Of a stretch of DNA of 42,922 nt, positions 9,884-17,139 are shown one piece after another (the stretch's first letter is position 1; each line of letters opens with the position of its first letter). Origin of the DNA: Lachnospiraceae bacterium. GTDB lineage: Bacteria > Bacillota > Clostridia > Lachnospirales > Lachnospiraceae. The translations under genes and the position numbers were made by a program. The stretch covers positions 1-42,922 of the forward strand of contig JAUNAG010000005.1 in assembly GCA_030527685.1 (NCBI GenBank), given 5' to 3'. Under the pieces are notes generated by a model. The model was given only the letters and a program-made list of their open reading frames with translations, did no database searches and was not told where the DNA came from.

Positions 9884-12196
9884 ATGATGAAGCTCTATGA
9901 TCACGGCGTCTATCTGATCGGCGGAAGAACACTTGCAGATGAAGCTCCGCTTTCAAAGGTAGAAGCAAAGAAGGGCACAATCGCCTACGGTATCTTAAAA
10001 GATCACAATACATCCGGCAGCATGGAGCAGCTGCGCATCAAGTTCGATGCACTGACTTCTCATGATATTACCTATGTCGGTATTATTCAGACGGCAAGAG
10101 CTTCCGGTCTGGAGCGCTTCCCGATTCCCTATGTGCTGACAAACTGCCACAACTCACTTTGCGCAGTAGGCGGCACTATCAATGAAGACGATCATGTATT
10201 CGGTCTGACAGCAGCAAAGAAATACGGCGGCGTCTATGTACCGCCGATGCAGGCCGTTATCCACCAGTATGCAAGAGAGATGCTTTCCGGCGGCGGAAGA
10301 ATGATCCTCGGTTCCGACAGCCACACCCGTTACGGTGCAATGGGCACCATGGCAATGGGCGAGGGCGGTCCGGAGCTCGTAAAGCAGCTTCTGAACAGAA
10401 CCTATGATATTGCAATGCCGGAGGTGGTCGCTGTCTATCTGAAGGGCGAGGTGCAGCCGGGAACAGGCCCTCAGGATATCGCTCTGGCCATCATCGGTGC
10501 TGTCTTCAAGAACGGCTATGTAAAAAATAAGGTCATGGAGTTTGTGGGACCGGGTGTTGCAGGTCTCTCCATGGATTACCGTATCGGCGTCGATGTTATG
10601 ACGACTGAGACAACCTGCCTGAGCTCTGTCTGGGAGACAGATGCCAGAACAGAGGAGTACTTTGCAATTCACGGAAGACCGGATGCCTATAAGGCACTGA
10701 CTCCGGCAGCAACAGCCTACTATGACGGCTGCATCGAAATCGATCTCTCCGAAATCAAGCCGATGATCGCTATGCCGTATCATCCGAGCTGCGTTTATAC
10801 AATCGATGAGGTCAACGATCATCCGTATGAGATCCTGAAGGAGGCAGAAGAGCGCGCAAAGGTTTCCTTTGGAGACAAGGTTTCTGTTGATCTGCAGGGC
10901 AAGGTCAGAGACGGACGTCTCTGCGTAGACCAGGGTATTATTGCAGGCTGTGCAGGCGGCGGTTTCGAGAACCTCTGCGATGCAGCCGATATCCTTCGCG
11001 GAAAGAGCATCGGCTCCGGCGCCTTCTCACTCAGCGTCTATCCGGCATCCATGCCGGTCTACCGCGAGCTGATGAAGAACGGCTCCATGGCTGATCTGAT
11101 CGATGCGGGTGCTGTTGTGAAGCCGGCCTTCTGCGGACCGTGCTTCGGCGCAGGCGACACACCGTCCAACAATGCATTCTCCATCCGCCACTCCACCAGA
11201 AACTTCCCGAACCGTGAAGGTTCCAAGGTACAGGAAGGCCAGATCTCCTCTGTTGCTCTGATGGATGCACGTTCGATTGCGGCAACAGCTGCCAACCAGG
11301 GCAAGCTGACTTCCGCAGCAGAATATGCAGGCGAATACACAAAGCCGGCTTACTATTTCGACTCCGGCATTTATAAGAACCGCGTCTTTGACAGCCACGG
11401 CGAGGCAGATCCGTCTGCAGAGCTTGTCTACGGTCCGAACATCAAGGACTGGCCGCAGATGCCGGCACTTGCCGACAACCTGCTGCTGAAGGTTGTCTCC
11501 GAGATTCATGATCCGGTCACAACAACAGACGAGCTGATTCCGTCAGGCGAGACCTCTTCTTACCGCTCCAATCCGCTGAAGCTCGCATCCTTCGCGCTTT
11601 CCAGAAAGGATCCCGCTTATGTGGGACGCGCACAGGAAGTACAGAAGGCGGAAAATGCAGTTCTCGCCGGAAACGCACCGGCAGCAGTTCTTCCGGAGCT
11701 GGAGAGCGTAATGGAAACCGTAAAGGCAGAACTCGGCATCGATCTCAGTGCCTTTGCAGCAGAGGCCGCTTCTGTTGCGGCAGCGGATGCATCTGCTGTT
11801 TACGAACCGCTGAAGCTCGGCATCGGTTCTACAATCTTTGCCGTAAAGCCGGGTGACGGCTCTGCCCGCGAGCAGGCTGCTTCCTGCCAGAAGGTACTTG
11901 GCGGCTGGGCAAATATCGCAAATGAGTATGCAACGAAGCGCTACCGTTCCAACCTGATCAACTGGGGCATGCTGCCGCTGCTGATTCAGGAAGGCGAGCT
12001 TCCGTTTGCAAACGGCGACTGGATCTTTGTTCCGGATATCGCAGCAGCTGTTGCGGAGAAGAGACCGGAGATTCAGGCTTATGCAGTAAGAGACGGCAAG
12101 GCAGCTGCATTTACCATGACACTCGGTGATCTGACAGATGACGAGAGAGAGATTATCGGAAACGGCTGCCTGATCAATTATTACAGAAAGCACTAA
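9884..12196 (+). CDS. Aconitase-superfamily hydratase, YbhJ-like
   Basis: A 770-residue aconitase homologue that keeps an Fe-S site: Cys356 in IIAGCAGGG, and Cys417 and Cys420 in [10 protein letters not shown]. Asp40-His41 and the DSHT segment (145-148) match aconitase active-site regions. Two features depart from true aconitase: the SCTNS-type block is AGCAGGG, and I find no GSGSSRE catalytic block in the swivel domain, which instead reads [12 protein letters not shown] before INWGMLPL. This pattern resembles E. coli YbhJ, whose substrate is unknown. It is unlikely to be the TCA-cycle enzyme. It is co-transcribed with the PucR-type gene. No citrate synthase or isocitrate dehydrogenase gene is nearby. 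Confidence 0.8.
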
Positions 12197-12217
12197 AAGC
12201 GCCGGTTCATACGGCGG

Positions 12218-12255
12218 AATCCGTTTTCAAAGGAGCGTATGCGGGAAAACGGATT
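12218..12255 (+). promoter_or_regulatory. Hairpin in the signal peptidase leader
   Basis: AATCCGTTTTC (12218-12228) pairs perfectly over 11 bases with GAAAACGGATT (12245-12255). No T tract follows, so it is not a terminator. It ends six bases before the ribosome binding site. Confidence 0.45.
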
Positions 12256-12270
12256 GATACGGAGGAAGGA

Positions 12271-12801
12271 ATGAAGTTTTTTGTAAAAGAGATTCTGCCT
12301 TATGTGGCGATCGTGGCAGCCGTGCTGCTTCTGAACAAATTTGTTCTGATTAATGCAAAGATTCCGTCACAGTCGATGGAGACAACTCTGATGACACATG
12401 ACCGCCTGTTCGGAAACAGACTGGCGTACATGAACGAAGATCCGCAGCGTCATGATATTGTGATCTTCCGTTATCCGGACGATGAGACGCAGCTGTTCGT
12501 CAAGCGTCTGATCGGTCTCCCGGGAGATACGATTGAGCTGCGTGACGGCGTTGTCTACATCAACGGCGAGAAGGATGAGGACCAGGAAGAATTCACATCC
12601 ACAAACAGACATGACAATTACGGACCGGTGACGGTTCCGGAAGGCTGCTACTTTATGCTTGGCGACAACCGTGCACACAGCAACGATTCAAGATTCTGGA
12701 ACAACACCTTTGTGAAGAGAGAGCAGATTGTGGCAAGAGCGGGCTTCCGCTACTGGCCGCTCAATCAGATCGGCTTCGTCAATAAGCATGCAAAGAACTG
12801 A
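12271..12801 (+). CDS. lepB: Signal peptidase I
   Basis: A 176-residue type I signal peptidase that removes Sec and Tat signal peptides on the outer membrane face. One N-terminal membrane helix (about 8-28) precedes the catalytic serine, Ser35 in IPSQSMETT. The general-base Lys78 lies in FVKRLIGLPGD. Box E is GDNRAHSNDSR (131-141). The single membrane helix and short length fit the Gram-positive SipS type. GGAGGAAGG precedes the ATG. It follows the aconitase-like gene by 74 bases with a hairpin between and has its own terminator. Confidence 0.95.
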   Translation: MKFFVKEILPYVAIVAAVLLLNKFVLINAKIPSQSMETTLMTHDRLFGNRLAYMNEDPQRHDIVIFRYPDDETQLFVKRLIGLPGDTIELRDGVVYINGEKDEDQEEFTSTNRHDNYGPVTVPEGCYFMLGDNRAHSNDSRFWNNTFVKREQIVARAGFRYWPLNQIGFVNKHAKN

Positions 12802-12813
12802 CAAAAGAGAAAG

Positions 12814-12840
12814 GGCCGCCCGATGAGGGCGGTCTTTTTT
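12814..12840 (+). terminator. Terminator after the signal peptidase gene
   Basis: GGCCGCCC (12814-12821) pairs with GGGCGGTC (12827-12834) around a short loop, followed by TTTTTT. Confidence 0.92.
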
Positions 12841-12925
12841 GCTGTACAGAACGGTATGGAAGTATGTGTATAAGCCGCAGGAATGCCGGCCTGGTTTTGA
12901 AACGGTACTTTTAAAGTTGAATATA

Positions 12926-13012
12926 ATATTGTAAAAAATCAGACAATATATCAAATTAATGCATAATGAACTGACGACATAATTTATTTACAATATATAT
13001 TCTGTATATTGT
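12926..13012. promoter_or_regulatory. Cluster of ACAATATA half-sites upstream of an RNA promoter
   Basis: Two inverted pairs of one half-site are present. ATATTGT (12926-12932) faces ACAATAT (12943-12949), 10 bases apart. ACAATATA (12990-12997) faces TATATTGT (13005-13012), seven bases apart and ending one base before the -35 box at 13014. The region is AT-rich, so chance pairs are possible, but sharing one half-site over four positions suggests an operator. Confidence 0.4.
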
Positions 13013-13013
13013 G

Positions 13014-13042
13014 TTGACAGAAGAGGGTCATTCTGCTATATT
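13014..13042 (+). promoter_or_regulatory. Consensus promoter with no protein gene downstream
   Basis: TTGACA (13014-13019), 17-base spacer, TATATT (13037-13042). It is among the best promoters in the window. The next credible protein start is about 890 bases away. Confidence 0.8.
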
Positions 13043-13048
13043 AGTCCT

Positions 13049-13891
13049 ATCAAAAGAAACACCTAACCGATAACCCACTCAGAAATCAGAACTGCCAACA
13101 AGATTTATCATCTGATCGGAGACGAGAAATCCGATAGATGCATCAGCTCTGAAGAATCAGATATTTCTTTCCAGTAACAAAGAAAGTAAGAAGACGATTT
13201 ATCAAAGGAAAAGAGATATCGAAGAAAGAAGCAAAACCAAAGCAGCCGTCTGAAGACTGAGAACCTTAAAAAGAAGAGGAGGATGTTTCCATTGGACACA
13301 TTTGAAGAACCGATCTACGCAGCTCCTCTGTATGATATCGGCAGCATCCGGTAATTCCCGACAAGAAAACCATTTCACATGAACGGTATAGAATACCGAA
13401 GATCCCGACAGATCACCCCCTAAAGCGAAATGGTATATCCCCCGGATGATCATACAAGAGAGAACATGCCAATCGATTATATCGGATGAAGGTTTTGAGC
13501 TAGGAATGTCTCCTGCCTGTACAGCTTGCGCAGACAGCGAAGGCCGGAAAAGGAACCGATCATCGATGTGAAACTTTATAATCGAATATACAGATGGTCA
13601 GAAATACGATCCCAACTCCTCAAACCGATGTGTACCGGATGAGTCGAGCAGGAACGCTGGAAGACATCACAAAATGGATATGAATCTTCTAAATCGAAAG
13701 ATGAGCCGGGAATAAAAATAAAACTTCATTATAAAGAACCTGCATCAATAGTGACTGGTCAACTTTATTGATAACGTTTAAGGCGAGACGAAAATAAGTC
13801 CTTAAATATTAGAAGAGGAAAATCAATTAATTGAATAATGAAGAATTTTAGGACGGCCGCCGTGATACGAAAAGGTATGACGACGGCCGTC
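13049..13891 (+). ncRNA. Candidate large structured non-coding RNA, about 840 nt
   Basis: No credible protein frame exists here on either strand. The region is purine- and A-rich on this strand (30 A against 6 T in 13201-13260) and contains many nested complementary segments. Examples are 13109-13119/13131-13140 (CATCT and ATCGG arms), 13164-13170/13179-13185, 13275-13281/13323-13329 (AGAGGAG/CTCCTCT) enclosing 13283-13290/13294-13301, and 13345-13351/13442-13448 (CATCCGG/CCGGATG). The last encloses 13369-13376/13427-13434 (ACCATTTC/GAAATGGT), which encloses 13384-13389/13393-13398 (CGGTAT/ATACCG). Further helices are 13558-13564/13593-13599, 13660-13667/13680-13689 with an AA bulge, an ATC-GAAA-GAT tetraloop at 13693-13702, 13744-13750/13766-13772 and 13773-13783/13800-13810. 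A long hairpin at 13852-13891 closes it, without a U tract. It does not match RNase P, tmRNA, 6S or SRP RNA motifs. Rather than a free RNA it could be a very long leader of the downstream rluA-like gene. Confidence 0.6.
13852..13891 (+). terminator. Long hairpin at the 3' end of the RNA candidate
   Basis: GACGGCCGCCGT (13852-13863) pairs with ACGACGGCCGTC (13880-13891) with one mismatch, extended by ATAC/GTAT (13865-13868, 13875-13878). It is followed by TTGTCGTG, which is a weak tail, so it may be a 3' processing or partial termination site. Confidence 0.45.
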
Positions 13892-13938
13892 TTGTCGTGC
13901 GCTCAAAAGTAGTGTATAAAAAGATAGGAGGCGAAGAA

Positions 13939-14589
13939 ATGAGAGAGCTGAATATTCTTTTTGAAGACGATATGCTGATTGCTGTCCATAAGCCGTATGG
14001 ACTTGCCGTGGAGAGCGCGAACGTGACACAGGCTGATCTGATCAGTCTTCTGCGGACCCATCTGAACGGTGCTGAAGTTTTTCCGGTTCACCGGATTGAC
14101 CAGCCGGTTGAAGGCATTGTGATTGCGGCAAAGACGAGAGCAGCAGCGGCGGCTCTTTCGGCACAGCTGACAGACGGAAGAATGAAAAAAATGTATATGA
14201 CCGCTGTGGACGGCACCATTCCGGAGGAGTCCGGTGAGCTGACCAACTGGCTGCTGATGGATCGCAAGATCAATCGAAGCCGCGCACTTCCGTACAGGGA
14301 GGGCGAAAAAAAGCCGGCAAAGGATGCCAGAAAAGCGATTCTGAGATACAGAAAGACAGGGGAACATCTCCTGGAGGTGGAGCTTCTGACAGGCCGTCAT
14401 CATCAGATTCGTGCGCAGCTGTCTGCGGCAGGCATGCCGATCAGGGGAGACAGAAAGTACGGCGGAAATCCGGATCCGGGTCTGCCGAAGGGTGCCATTG
14501 CACTCTGCGCATACCGGCTTACGTTCGTTCATCCGGGCACAAAGGAAGAGATGTGCCTGCAGACAACGGCAGCATGGTGTGAAGAGTAA
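13939..14589 (+). CDS. RluA-family pseudouridine synthase
   Basis: A 216-residue RNA pseudouridine synthase. The catalytic aspartate is Asp54 in HRIDQPVEGIVI; the usual following Arg is Gln here. Other family blocks are HKPYGLAVES near the N-terminus and TGRHHQIRAQLSAAGMPIRG near the C-terminus. No S4 domain is present, as in the short RluA subgroup. The start at 13939 is chosen for AGGAGG six bases upstream; an earlier GTG (13897) has no binding site. It overlaps no neighbour and is 69 bases from the next gene. The target RNA cannot be told from sequence. It follows the RNA candidate with no promoter of its own that I can see. Confidence 0.87.
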   Translation: MRELNILFEDDMLIAVHKPYGLAVESANVTQADLISLLRTHLNGAEVFPVHRIDQPVEGIVIAAKTRAAAAALSAQLTDGRMKKMYMTAVDGTIPEESGELTNWLLMDRKINRSRALPYREGEKKPAKDARKAILRYRKTGEHLLEVELLTGRHHQIRAQLSAAGMPIRGDRKYGGNPDPGLPKGAIALCAYRLTFVHPGTKEEMCLQTTAAWCEE

Positions 14590-14658
14590 AAAAAGAGAAG
14601 CCCTGTGAGGAAAACAAGACCTTGCGGGATGCTGATCGATCAGGGGAGTAAAGCAAAA

Positions 14659-17139
14659 GTGAAAAAGAGATTGATGAAGCTTCTTGCCTATATTGTGCTT
14701 TATCTGGCGGGAGTGATTGTATTTTCCAATTTTTCGGTGCTGCAGAGACAGCAGACTGTTGATTCATCGGTACTGACGAATCCGACACTTCCGGTGATGT
14801 GTGTCGATGTGAACGGCAACAAGGTCAATCGCATGTTCGGCTATCGGCAGGAGATGGATGCCACGAATATGCGCGGCGCGCTGATTCCGATGACAACAAA
14901 GCGCGCACTCACGGTTTCCTATAAAGCATATCGCAACAAGGTGCGCTCGGTGTCCTATGAGATTTCGGCACCGGATACAGGAGAGGTCGTGGAGAATGCC
15001 AAGATCGGAAGCTTTTCAGAAGACGGTGAATACCAGACAGCGACATTTTCCTTATCGGAACCGATCCTGATGAACCGCGAGTATCCGATTCGTTTCACGA
15101 TTTCGACCGACAGCGGAGACGTGTATTATTATGCACGCGTCATTCAGCGCTCCGATCCGGTTACAGACAAGTATGTACAGTTTGTCTATGATTTCTATGA
15201 GGGCTGCACCAATCAGCAGGGTGCATCGGAACTCAATTCCTATCTTGAGACAGACGATACGATTACCAATAATTCCTACACATCTGTTGATATCAGGTGT
15301 TCTCTGAAGCAGATTACATGGGGTAATCTGAAACCGCAGATTTACCGCAAGGCGGTTCCGACGATCCGCGAAATCAACGGTGAGACCTGCACGATTACGA
15401 ATGACTATCTGATTTCCGCAGAAGGTGACGGCGGTCAGGAAGTCTATCATGTCTGGGAGTATTACAGACTTCGCTATTACAACAGCCGCATGATGCTGCT
15501 GAATTTCAACCGCAAGGCTCTGCAGGTCTTTAACGGAGAATCTTCGCTTTCGATCAATGCAAACGGTGTCATGCTCGGAGTGGCTGAGCGTGATGTCGAA
15601 TATGTGAGCAACAATACAGCAAGCATCGTGGCCTTTATTCAGGATGGTGCGCTGTGGGAGTTCAATTCCGGAGCACAGAGACTTTCGAGAGTCTTCTCCA
15701 TGCGCGATGTCGGAAGCGAGACGGACGAGCGCAATGACAACAATGATTACGAGATCCGCATTATCCGCGTATCGGAGAGCGGAGGCATCGACTTTGTTGT
15801 CGGCGGCTACATGAGCCGCGGTGAGCATGAGGGTCAGCAGGGTGTGTCCGTCTGCCACTATAATCCGGAGACCTCTACTGTTTCGGAGCGGGCATTTATC
15901 CAGTATAATCGCTCGGCGGCACAGCTCTCCAAGGATCTTGACATCCTGTGCTATGTGACGACAGGCGATGTCGGCTACTTCTATCTGCAGAGAGCCATTT
16001 ACCGGATCGAGCTGGAATCAGGTGCGGCAGATGTCGTTCTGGACAATATCAATCCGGACTGCCTTGTTTCCTCAACGGACAACAGCATGGTGGCATGGAT
16101 GCCGGAAATGCAGCCGGATGCGGCATCTTCTATTACAGTGATGGCGCTGGAGACCTCTTCAGCAAGAAATATTCCGGCAGCGGCAGGTACTTATATTAAG
16201 GCACTCGGCTTCCTGAACGACGACTTCCTGTACGGAATCGCCAGCCAGTCCGACTTAAAGACCGGACCTTCCGGAGATGTGACATTTGCCATGAGCGAGC
16301 TGCGGATCGAGGAGTTCAGCGGAACACTTGTGAAGGACTATAAGCACGACGGAATCTATGTCACGGATGTGCAGATGGAGCCGGGACTTGCGCAGCTGAC
16401 CTGTGCGACGAGAGACAGCGAAGGCAATTATCAGCAGACAGCGGATGACAACATCATGAACAATCTGCAGTCAGAAAAGAGCGCGGTGACAGTGTACCTC
16501 TACAATTCGAGCAGACAGGGCACGATTGTGACACTGAAGATGCCGGGAAGCGTGACGAATCTCTCTCCGAATGTGACGGATTTCAGTATGCGCTATCTGC
16601 AGAATCATCCGGCAGGCGTTGTCTATCAGGAATCAGACAGCTACGTGCTCTATTATGTATATGCGGGCGGCCGTCTGCAGGGCATCTATACAGATCCTGC
16701 AAGAGCCATTACGGAGGCGGATGAACAGGTCGGTGTAGTGATCAACCAGGAAGGCCAGTATATCTACGAGCGAGGAAATAAGCAGACAAAGACAGAGCTT
16801 CACAATGAGGACATTCCGGCAGCGGTGCTGGCAGGTGAAATCAATGCGGACATGCTGGACATGCAGGTCGGAGACGATGTCACGGTCATGAACCTGGCAG
16901 GCTGCACACTGGATCAGGTATTGTACCAGCTTTCACAGGGACGCGCTGTCATTACAAAACTGGCAGACGGATCCACCGCTGTCATCGTCGGATATGACCA
17001 TTACAATACACTTCTTCTGAATATGCAGACAGGAGAACACTATTACATGGGTATCAACGACAGTACGGCAAGTATGCTGGAGGGCGGCAATATCTTTGTC
17101 AGCTATATTGAACGTCAGGCAACGATTAAGGCGGATTGA
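14659..17139 (+). CDS. Large membrane-anchored protein of unknown function with a possible C39-like C-terminus
   Basis: About 826 residues. One N-terminal membrane helix (about residues 8-26, LLAYIVLYLAGVIVF) follows a basic KKRLMK stretch, so the rest is extracytoplasmic. The middle is beta-rich with no motif I recognise, possibly repeated beta blades. The last 110 residues (AGCTLDQVLYQLSQGRAVIT, then STAVIVGYDHYNTLLL) resemble the Cys- and His-containing halves of C39-like papain folds. Where such enzymes have His-Ala-Val the protein has Ser-Thr-Ala-Val, so it is probably inactive. The start is uncertain: GTG 14659 has GGGGAG 10 bases upstream, while GTG 14605 gives 18 more residues. It is probably co-transcribed with the rluA-like gene. 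Confidence 0.8.
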   Translation: MKKRLMKLLAYIVLYLAGVIVFSNFSVLQRQQTVDSSVLTNPTLPVMCVDVNGNKVNRMFGYRQEMDATNMRGALIPMTTKRALTVSYKAYRNKVRSVSYEISAPDTGEVVENAKIGSFSEDGEYQTATFSLSEPILMNREYPIRFTISTDSGDVYYYARVIQRSDPVTDKYVQFVYDFYEGCTNQQGASELNSYLETDDTITNNSYTSVDIRCSLKQITWGNLKPQIYRKAVPTIREINGETCTITNDYLISAEGDGGQEVYHVWEYYRLRYYNSRMMLLNFNRKALQVFNGESSLSINANGVMLGVAERDVEYVSNNTASIVAFIQDGALWEFNSGAQRLSRVFSMRDVGSETDERNDNNDYEIRIIRVSESGGIDFVVGGYMSRGEHEGQQGVSVCHYNPETSTVSERAFIQYNRSAAQLSKDLDILCYVTTGDVGYFYLQRAIYRIELESGAADVVLDNINPDCLVSSTDNSMVAWMPEMQPDAASSITVMALETSSARNIPAAAGTYIKALGFLNDDFLYGIASQSDLKTGPSGDVTFAMSELRIEEFSGTLVKDYKHDGIYVTDVQMEPGLAQLTCATRDSEGNYQQTADDNIMNNLQSEKSAVTVYLYNSSRQGTIVTLKMPGSVTNLSPNVTDFSMRYLQNHPAGVVYQESDSYVLYYVYAGGRLQGIYTDPARAITEADEQVGVVINQEGQYIYERGNKQTKTELHNEDIPAAVLAGEINADMLDMQVGDDVTVMNLAGCTLDQVLYQLSQGRAVITKLADGSTAVIVGYDHYNTLLLNMQTGEHYYMGINDSTASMLEGGNIFVSYIERQATIKAD

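Follow-up and report, generated by a model that had tools for sequence, protein, structure and literature searches.

The question raised by this locus of a Lachnospiraceae genome is what is encoded in the interval flanked by genes for signal peptidase I (12271-12801) and an rluA-type pseudouridine synthase (start 13939). The stretch of DNA that was analysed (hereafter the window) is 42,922 nucleotides long and, further upstream, carries an aconitase-type hydratase gene and a PucR-type regulator gene. The initial annotation had proposed either a large non-coding RNA or an exceptionally long leader of the rluA-type gene. The former proposal was borne out by homologues, covariation, a pseudoknot, a recurrent promoter and a 3' hairpin: bases 13014-13892 form a stand-alone gene-like stretch for a large pseudoknotted RNA. 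Judged from sequence comparison, this stretch is almost certainly a conserved structured RNA gene, and its product very probably stands alone and acts in trans. The coordinates of all features are specified in Table 1.

Table 1. Features of the RNA locus (window coordinates)
Feature	Position	Strand	Remarks
Promoter, sigma-A type	13014..13042	+	-35 TTGACA 13014-13019; extended -10 TATATT 13037-13042
Predicted RNA, about 845 nt, promoter to 3' hairpin	13043..13892	+	ends inferred from promoter and 3' hairpin
Hairpin A, stem ATCGGA/TCCGAT, loop GACGAGAAA	13115..13135	+	present in window
Shine-Dalgarno AGGAGG	13277..13282	+	9 nt before start codon
Mini-ORF, TTG start, 20 codons, TAA stop: MDTFEEPIYAAPLYDIGSIR	13292..13354	+	inside core 1
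Helix P1, 5' strand	13326..13335	+	95.1% of cells paired; both-sided changes at 7/10 pairs
Pseudoknot PK1, 5' strand GGCAG	13340..13344	+	96.2% of cells paired; both-sided changes at 5/5 pairs
Helix P2, 5' strand CATCCGG	13345..13351	+	counted as two helices: 78.6% and 93.0% paired; 4/4 and 4/4 pairs changed on both sides
Long-range helix, 5' strand TTCCCGAC	13355..13362	+	ties core 1 to 3' domain
Helix P3, 5' strand ACCATTTC	13369..13376	+	88.1% paired; both-sided changes at 8/8 pairs
Helix P3, 3' strand GAAATGGT	13427..13434	+	partner of 13369..13376
Helix P2, 3' strand CCGGATG	13442..13448	+	partner of 13345..13351
Helix P1, 3' strand	13450..13460	+	partner of 13326..13335
Pseudoknot PK1, 3' strand ATGCC	13466..13470	+	4/5 PK1 pairs form in window itself
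Positional counterpart of GUAAAGAA-loop hairpin	13560..13590	+	window has GTGAAACT instead
Core 2: CTTCTAA, hairpin ATC-GAAA-GAT, GAGCCGGGAA	13686..13712	+	GAAA-loop hairpin at 13693-13702
Long-range helix, 3' strand GCCGGGAA	13705..13712	+	7/8 pairs form in window
AATTGAATA element, 5' of 3' hairpin	13829..13837	+	8-mer ATTGAATA present in 56/70 transcripts
3' G+C-rich hairpin, probable terminator	13852..13891	+	window copy without long T run

The annotated promoter (TTGACA-17-TATATT) was present in the window with a score of 11/12 and a TG preceding the -10 box, and TTGACA-17-TAnnnT was found 5' of core 1 in 62/70 homologues (scan performed without shuffled control). The strong A excess described earlier was also recovered (AT skew 0.18-0.36 across 13000-13899). 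The folding energy was -203.7 kcal/mol, versus -173.8 ± 6.5 kcal/mol for 20 shuffles (z = -4.6). Homologous RNAs with both ends recognised and a strong 3' hairpin measured 506-1352 nt; the median length over 70 homologues was 796 nt, for which unrecognised ends were set to default positions. The long 3' hairpin of the initial annotation is real and recurs: a hairpin scoring at least 28 followed a TTGAATA-like element in 52/70 homologues, was weak in another 9/70 and was absent in 9/70 (same scan, no shuffled control). The long T run is often missing from it among homologues, and transcription probably ends there. Right after this hairpin, a weak promoter-like sequence (TTGTCG-17-TATAAA, 13892-13920), perhaps serving the rluA-type gene, was spotted by eye and is absent from the promoter scan list. 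On the other side of the locus, a likely terminator of the signal peptidase gene (G+C-rich hairpin at 12816-12841 followed by TCTTTTTT, + strand) was also identified by eye; the feature scan gives the hairpin on the other strand.

Homologues were collected by DNA and covariance searches. The DNA search matched 23/145 genomes, own genome included, i.e. 20 others of the genus, one of another genus in the same family (G067) and one of another family (G129); within the window, the best matches fell into two blocks separated by about 270 nt. The G129 match (L021) is weak (query bases 165-222, E 1.2e-4) and may be due to chance. R1, a covariance model of core 1, matched 30/42 genomes of the genus and, with strict filters, 21/397 genomes of the family (own genome included in both). 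A second model, R2, used with lax filters, matched 9/40 family genomes, each from a different genus and the own genome not among them, and gave 21/392 for the order draw and 3/391 for the class draw (own genome included in both). No R1 or R2 match fell outside the family, the order and class draws being scored for only 6 candidates per genome and including an uncounted share of extra-family genomes. In total, 71 matches from 29 genera of Lachnospiraceae were aligned, a few of these genera being represented by weak matches (27-40 bits). Twelve of the 42 same-genus genomes gave no core-1 match with R1, and again none with R2 and lax filters; four of the twelve are at least 90% complete. The RNA can be lost in such genomes, or it falls at assembly breaks, the latter in at least some cases because two of them (G024 and G031) have core-2 matches near a contig start. 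There was one match per genome, except in G056, where a weak partial second match (L111), which may be due to chance, was found in addition to a full copy elsewhere in the genome. A scan with the core-2 pattern gave three matches among named records, all in uncultured Lachnospiraceae, and no match in viral contigs.

The regions were aligned as follows: 19 of 21 were kept (L042 and L045, without core 1, were dropped), and they share a conserved promoter, core 1, a variable insert, core 2, the AATTGAATA element and the 3' hairpin. Alignment A1 omits L035, A2 omits L039 and L040, and A3 was unused. Alignment A4 contains 11 of the 19 sequences, picked because MAFFT kept their register, and R1 was built from it. 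Alignments A5 (49 sequences) and A6 (71 sequences) were fitted to the structure, which favours the structure; A4 was not so fitted, but the structure was derived from it. A6 leaves out L060, the window's own row, and L103, which occupies the position of L089; it contains L111, a weak partial match that stands outside the 70-row counts.

Core 1 consists of three nested helices and a pseudoknot. In A4, the P1-P3 pairs were formed in 88.5% of cells, versus 32-46% with slid partners, and 11 pairs were changed on both sides. The corresponding figures were 90.7% and 22/26 pairs in A5, and 90.1% and 23/26 pairs in A6; slid-partner controls for P1-P3 paired at 33-49% in A6 and at 32-49% over the three alignments. 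The A6 cells changed on both sides numbered 313, versus 83.9 after shuffling, and 0/500 shuffles scored as high on any of five measures in A4, A5 or A6. PK1, which is not part of the structure of the covariance models, occurs in many sequence variants (GGCAG/CUGCC, GGUAU/AUACC, GGUAA/UUACC, GACAG/CUGUC, GGCUG/CAGCC, GAUGG/CCAUC and others). Its paired share was reached by 0/500 shuffles, two weaker measures being reached by 3/500 and 14/500, and its slid controls paired at 18-54%. By these comparisons, the nested core P1/P2/P3 and the pseudoknot are conserved as RNA structure. Two helices of the initial annotation, CATCCGG/CCGGATG (13345/13442) and ACCATTTC/GAAATGGT (13369/13427), are thus P2 and P3 and were found to be conserved and to covary; P1 (13326/13450) was absent from its helix list. 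Its third helix, AGAGGAG/CTCCTCT (13275/13323), is present in the window but does not occur generally: a Watson-Crick match of at least 4 between the Shine-Dalgarno and the 10 nt in question was found in 29/62 homologues and none in 33/62. This pairing, which also competes with P1, was rejected as a conserved element and lock on the start site in view of the 33/62 without a match. The CCGAT/ATCGG pairings were rejected as well, because the genus alignment shows no conservation of the ATCGG at 13337.

A long-range helix joins core 1 to core 2. Over 40 homologues, its positions were 90.3% paired, versus 81.7 ± 1.1% with partners shuffled; over the 21 unique pairs the values were 89.3% and 79.8%, and 0/3000 shuffles were as high. 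The strands change in step (UUCCUUAC/GUAGGGAA, UUCCCAAC/GUUGGGAA, UUUCCUGC/GCAGGAAA). For this test, the register was anchored on GGGAA and the better of two 5' offsets was taken, for real and shuffled pairs alike; row L095 (4/8 pairs), which looks misplaced, was kept among the 40. When the 3' strand was placed one base off, and at wrong places in some loci, pairing was 45.6%, versus 46.6% shuffled. The annotated GAAA tetraloop hairpin in core 2 is real, and hairpins recur at this and the 3' position in homologues with other loops and stems. The core-2 pattern did not match in 30/70 homologues, and it misses some real cases (L056). In two loci, L032 and L033 (rows L058 and L059), core 2 lies 857-860 nt past the start codon, versus 421 nt in the window, which makes their inter-core insert longer by about 440 nt.

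Two further hairpins have fixed loops on stems that differ in sequence. The loop [AG]ACGAGAAA on a stem of at least 4 pairs, as in hairpin A, was present in 26/70 homologues (mean 0.1/70 in 30 shuffles), and the GUAAAGAA loop on a stem of at least 4 pairs in 45/70 (mean 0.27/70 in 30 shuffles). The window sequence GTGAAACT was found in 10/70 homologues, and as a hairpin loop in 0/70. In L086, L087, L100, L101 and L106, the GACGAGAAA hairpin lies 3' rather than 5' of core 1, as if the module had moved.

Core 1 also contains a ribosome start site. The initial annotation had reported no credible protein frame; there is indeed no long plus-strand ORF, and the listed ORFs of at least 50 aa within the stretch (63 and 83 aa) are on the minus strand only, but a conserved Shine-Dalgarno sequence and a 20-codon mini-ORF had been overlooked. 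A Shine-Dalgarno sequence with a start codon was found in 64/71 homologues (ATG 36, TTG 24, GTG 4; the scan permits these triplets only), at a spacing of 7-10 nt in 63 of these 64. Without preselection of triplets, model position 1 was ATG, TTG or GTG in 69/70 homologues, ATA in one and CTG never. A conserved Shine-Dalgarno sequence and start of a short ORF, as seen here, are expected of a dual-function RNA. The distance from the start to the P1 strand varies, yet it is in frame in 54/70 homologues (24, 27, 30, 33, 36 or 39 nt); the tally of distances counts two wrong assignments, 5 (L124) and 44 (L092), as off-frame. In L085 and L088, from two further genera, a start 16 nt downstream is the more likely one, and it too fits the frame. 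The frame is both kept and open in 47/70 homologues, with such a member in 20/29 genera. In most homologues, the mini-ORF overlaps the 5' strands of P1, of the pseudoknot and of part of P2.

Exceptions were recorded as follows: the frame is lost in seven genomes of the window's genus, the conserved block is read in a different frame by one clade of that genus, and five other genera, together with members of the window's genus, keep just 2-10 codons. In genus g311 (assessed by eye), the ORF stops short of P1 after 3-5 codons, and GGTGA replaces AGGAGG as the upstream motif. The peptide consensus was M(G/D)...QY(D/E/V)xG(R/I/M/K)A. Changed-codon scores only mildly exceeded those of column shuffles (32, 45, 53 and 26 of 300 shuffles reached the observed value in the four length classes). 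From these mild scores, the out-of-frame genus members and the 2-10-codon ORFs, initiation looks better conserved than the peptide.

Four explanations other than a trans-acting RNA gene were weighed. A functional micropeptide made from the mini-ORF, with the remainder as a long structured 3' region, would make this a dual-function RNA. RNAIII/hld and SR1 are dual-function RNAs of this kind, with a short ORF within a structured regulatory RNA; here, in contrast, peptide conservation is weak and the pseudoknot core is overlapped by the ORF. The retention of Shine-Dalgarno, start and frame in most homologues speaks for a micropeptide, as do the open in-frame ORFs (46/52, versus about 55% by chance, relatives being counted as independent) and the top score that frame 0 had in each length class (four classes, 51 sequences). 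However, amino-acid conservation beyond chance is weak by the column shuffles, the conserved QYxxG sits on the P1 and pseudoknot strands, so that RNA pairing can explain it, and some ORFs are very short or frame-shifted, as described above. Four mini-ORF peptides compared with Pfam and NCBIfam at E up to 5 gave no match. Overall, a micropeptide gene is an improbable reading. A decayed protein gene or a mobile element that resembles an RNA by chance is scarcely credible: some core 1 stretches do translate to protein-like strings in single species, but against this stand the compensatory changes at 23/26 pairs and the pseudoknot, the single-base indels between relatives in core 1 past the mini-ORF, the single match per genome outside G056 and the absence of any phage or plasmid match at E 1e-5.

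A cis-acting leader, i.e. an attenuator with a leader peptide before the rluA-type gene, was weighed with a neighbour survey of 59 loci (up to 3 ORFs on each side; several loci per genus, so not independent). The order of promoter, leader ORF, structure and terminator is that of an attenuator, but the downstream gene on the same strand, which would be constant for an attenuator or leader, was of rluA type in 22/59 loci only, window included. In L154 and L155 an rluA-type gene was downstream but on the opposite strand, and in L150 and L157 it preceded the RNA; in 33/59 loci, some of which are cut by contig ends, none was among the listed ORFs. The weak promoter-like sequence between hairpin and rluA in the window also counts against a leader. 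The long rluA leader proposed in the initial annotation is therefore not supported as a rule, and a cis-acting leader is very unlikely. An rluA-type synthase was found near the RNA in 26/59 loci and an aconitase-type hydratase in 28/59; both were present in 16/59 (the window's genus and five others), with the RNA between them and the order reversed in L157. Such a pattern suggests that the RNA occupies an old slot in the chromosome rather than serving as a regular rluA leader. In six loci (L145, L148-L152), the RNA is followed by a large shared protein, c7 (913 aa in L151), which had no Pfam match at 1e-5, CbbX and SpoVK matches being far below cut-off.

The last alternative, suggested by size and style, is that the RNA is a diverged version of a large or housekeeping RNA already known (OLE, ROOL, GOLLD, raiA/ModT, 6S or RNase P). 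Rfam 15 gave no match over the whole window at gathering scores, and at E up to 5 over bases 12000-15000 it gave four weak hits, all outside 13043-13892. At 19 homologues there was no match inside the RNA; the hits outside it were a T-box (L057) and a weak one (L096). The former is a T-box-like leader (L057 543-922, minus strand) that scores 59.7 bits and so does not reach its gathering score (93). Searches for 6S and RNase P RNA found both above cut-offs on other contigs of the same genome. Rfam holds profiles for OLE, ROOL, GOLLD and raiA (PMC12286853; PMC11706538), and no covariance match to these models was obtained for the window or the 19 homologues, in agreement with the initial annotation, which could not assign the RNA to any of them. 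A divergent copy of a known RNA is thus highly improbable.

Likenesses to known systems can nevertheless be drawn. The raiA motif (ModT RNA) is trans-acting, with SigA promoter boxes, pseudoknots and uninformative synteny (PMC11706538); the present RNA resembles it in promoter boxes, pseudoknot, uninformative synteny and proposed trans action, but lacks an Rfam match, is longer, is found in one family only and carries a Shine-Dalgarno sequence and a mini-ORF in its core. The present RNA is large and ornate, as is OLE RNA, which measures about 600 nt and occurs in Gram-positive bacteria that are extremophilic or anaerobic (PMC9723947); unlike OLE, it has no Rfam match. ROOL and GOLLD, which are encoded in phages or prophages, often near tRNA islands, share its size class and ornate style (PMC12286853); in contrast, the present RNA has no tRNA in the 42.9 kb window and no phage match, and hydratase, signal peptidase and rluA genes lie alongside. 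The available parts of the literature on large bacterial RNAs (including PMC11109978, PMC12286853, PMC8040213, PMC11706538 and PMC5171806) do not describe it, and supplements or the 2017 survey of 224 candidate RNAs may hold an entry.

Taken as a whole, a large structured trans-acting RNA gene, perhaps with the mini-ORF as a gate, is a likely account of the locus. With covarying helices over several hundred nt, its own promoter and a 3' hairpin, it has the characters of a large structured bacterial ncRNA, and it would be a new class of such RNAs with an embedded ribosome start site. Its RNA would work in trans, on its own or within an RNP, as a regulator or a scaffold. Ribosomes loading on the mini-ORF would unfold the core, and a drop in initiation, as under starvation or stress, would let it fold and make the RNA active. 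Gating of the core by ribosomes is a tentative proposal, the ground for it being the overlap itself of the mini-ORF with the 5' strands of P1, pseudoknot and P2. Against it stand the g311 ORF that ends before P1 and the other ORFs that stop after 2-10 codons, and a simpler role of the ribosome, i.e. protecting or positioning the 5' part, would fit the short g311 ORFs equally well. An RNA machine whose pseudoknotted core shares strands with a ribosome-read mini-ORF, and which switches between a translated and a folded state to report translation status in trans, is likewise conceivable rather than probable.

Few classes of large structured bacterial RNAs are known, and those studied are RNA cages, membrane RNPs and growth regulators. 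The RNA reported here, without a match in Rfam 15, occurs widely within a major family of gut and rumen bacteria and has a core with a pseudoknot that is supported by covariation. It offers a clear case in which the same strands are seemingly under both RNA-structure and translation constraints.
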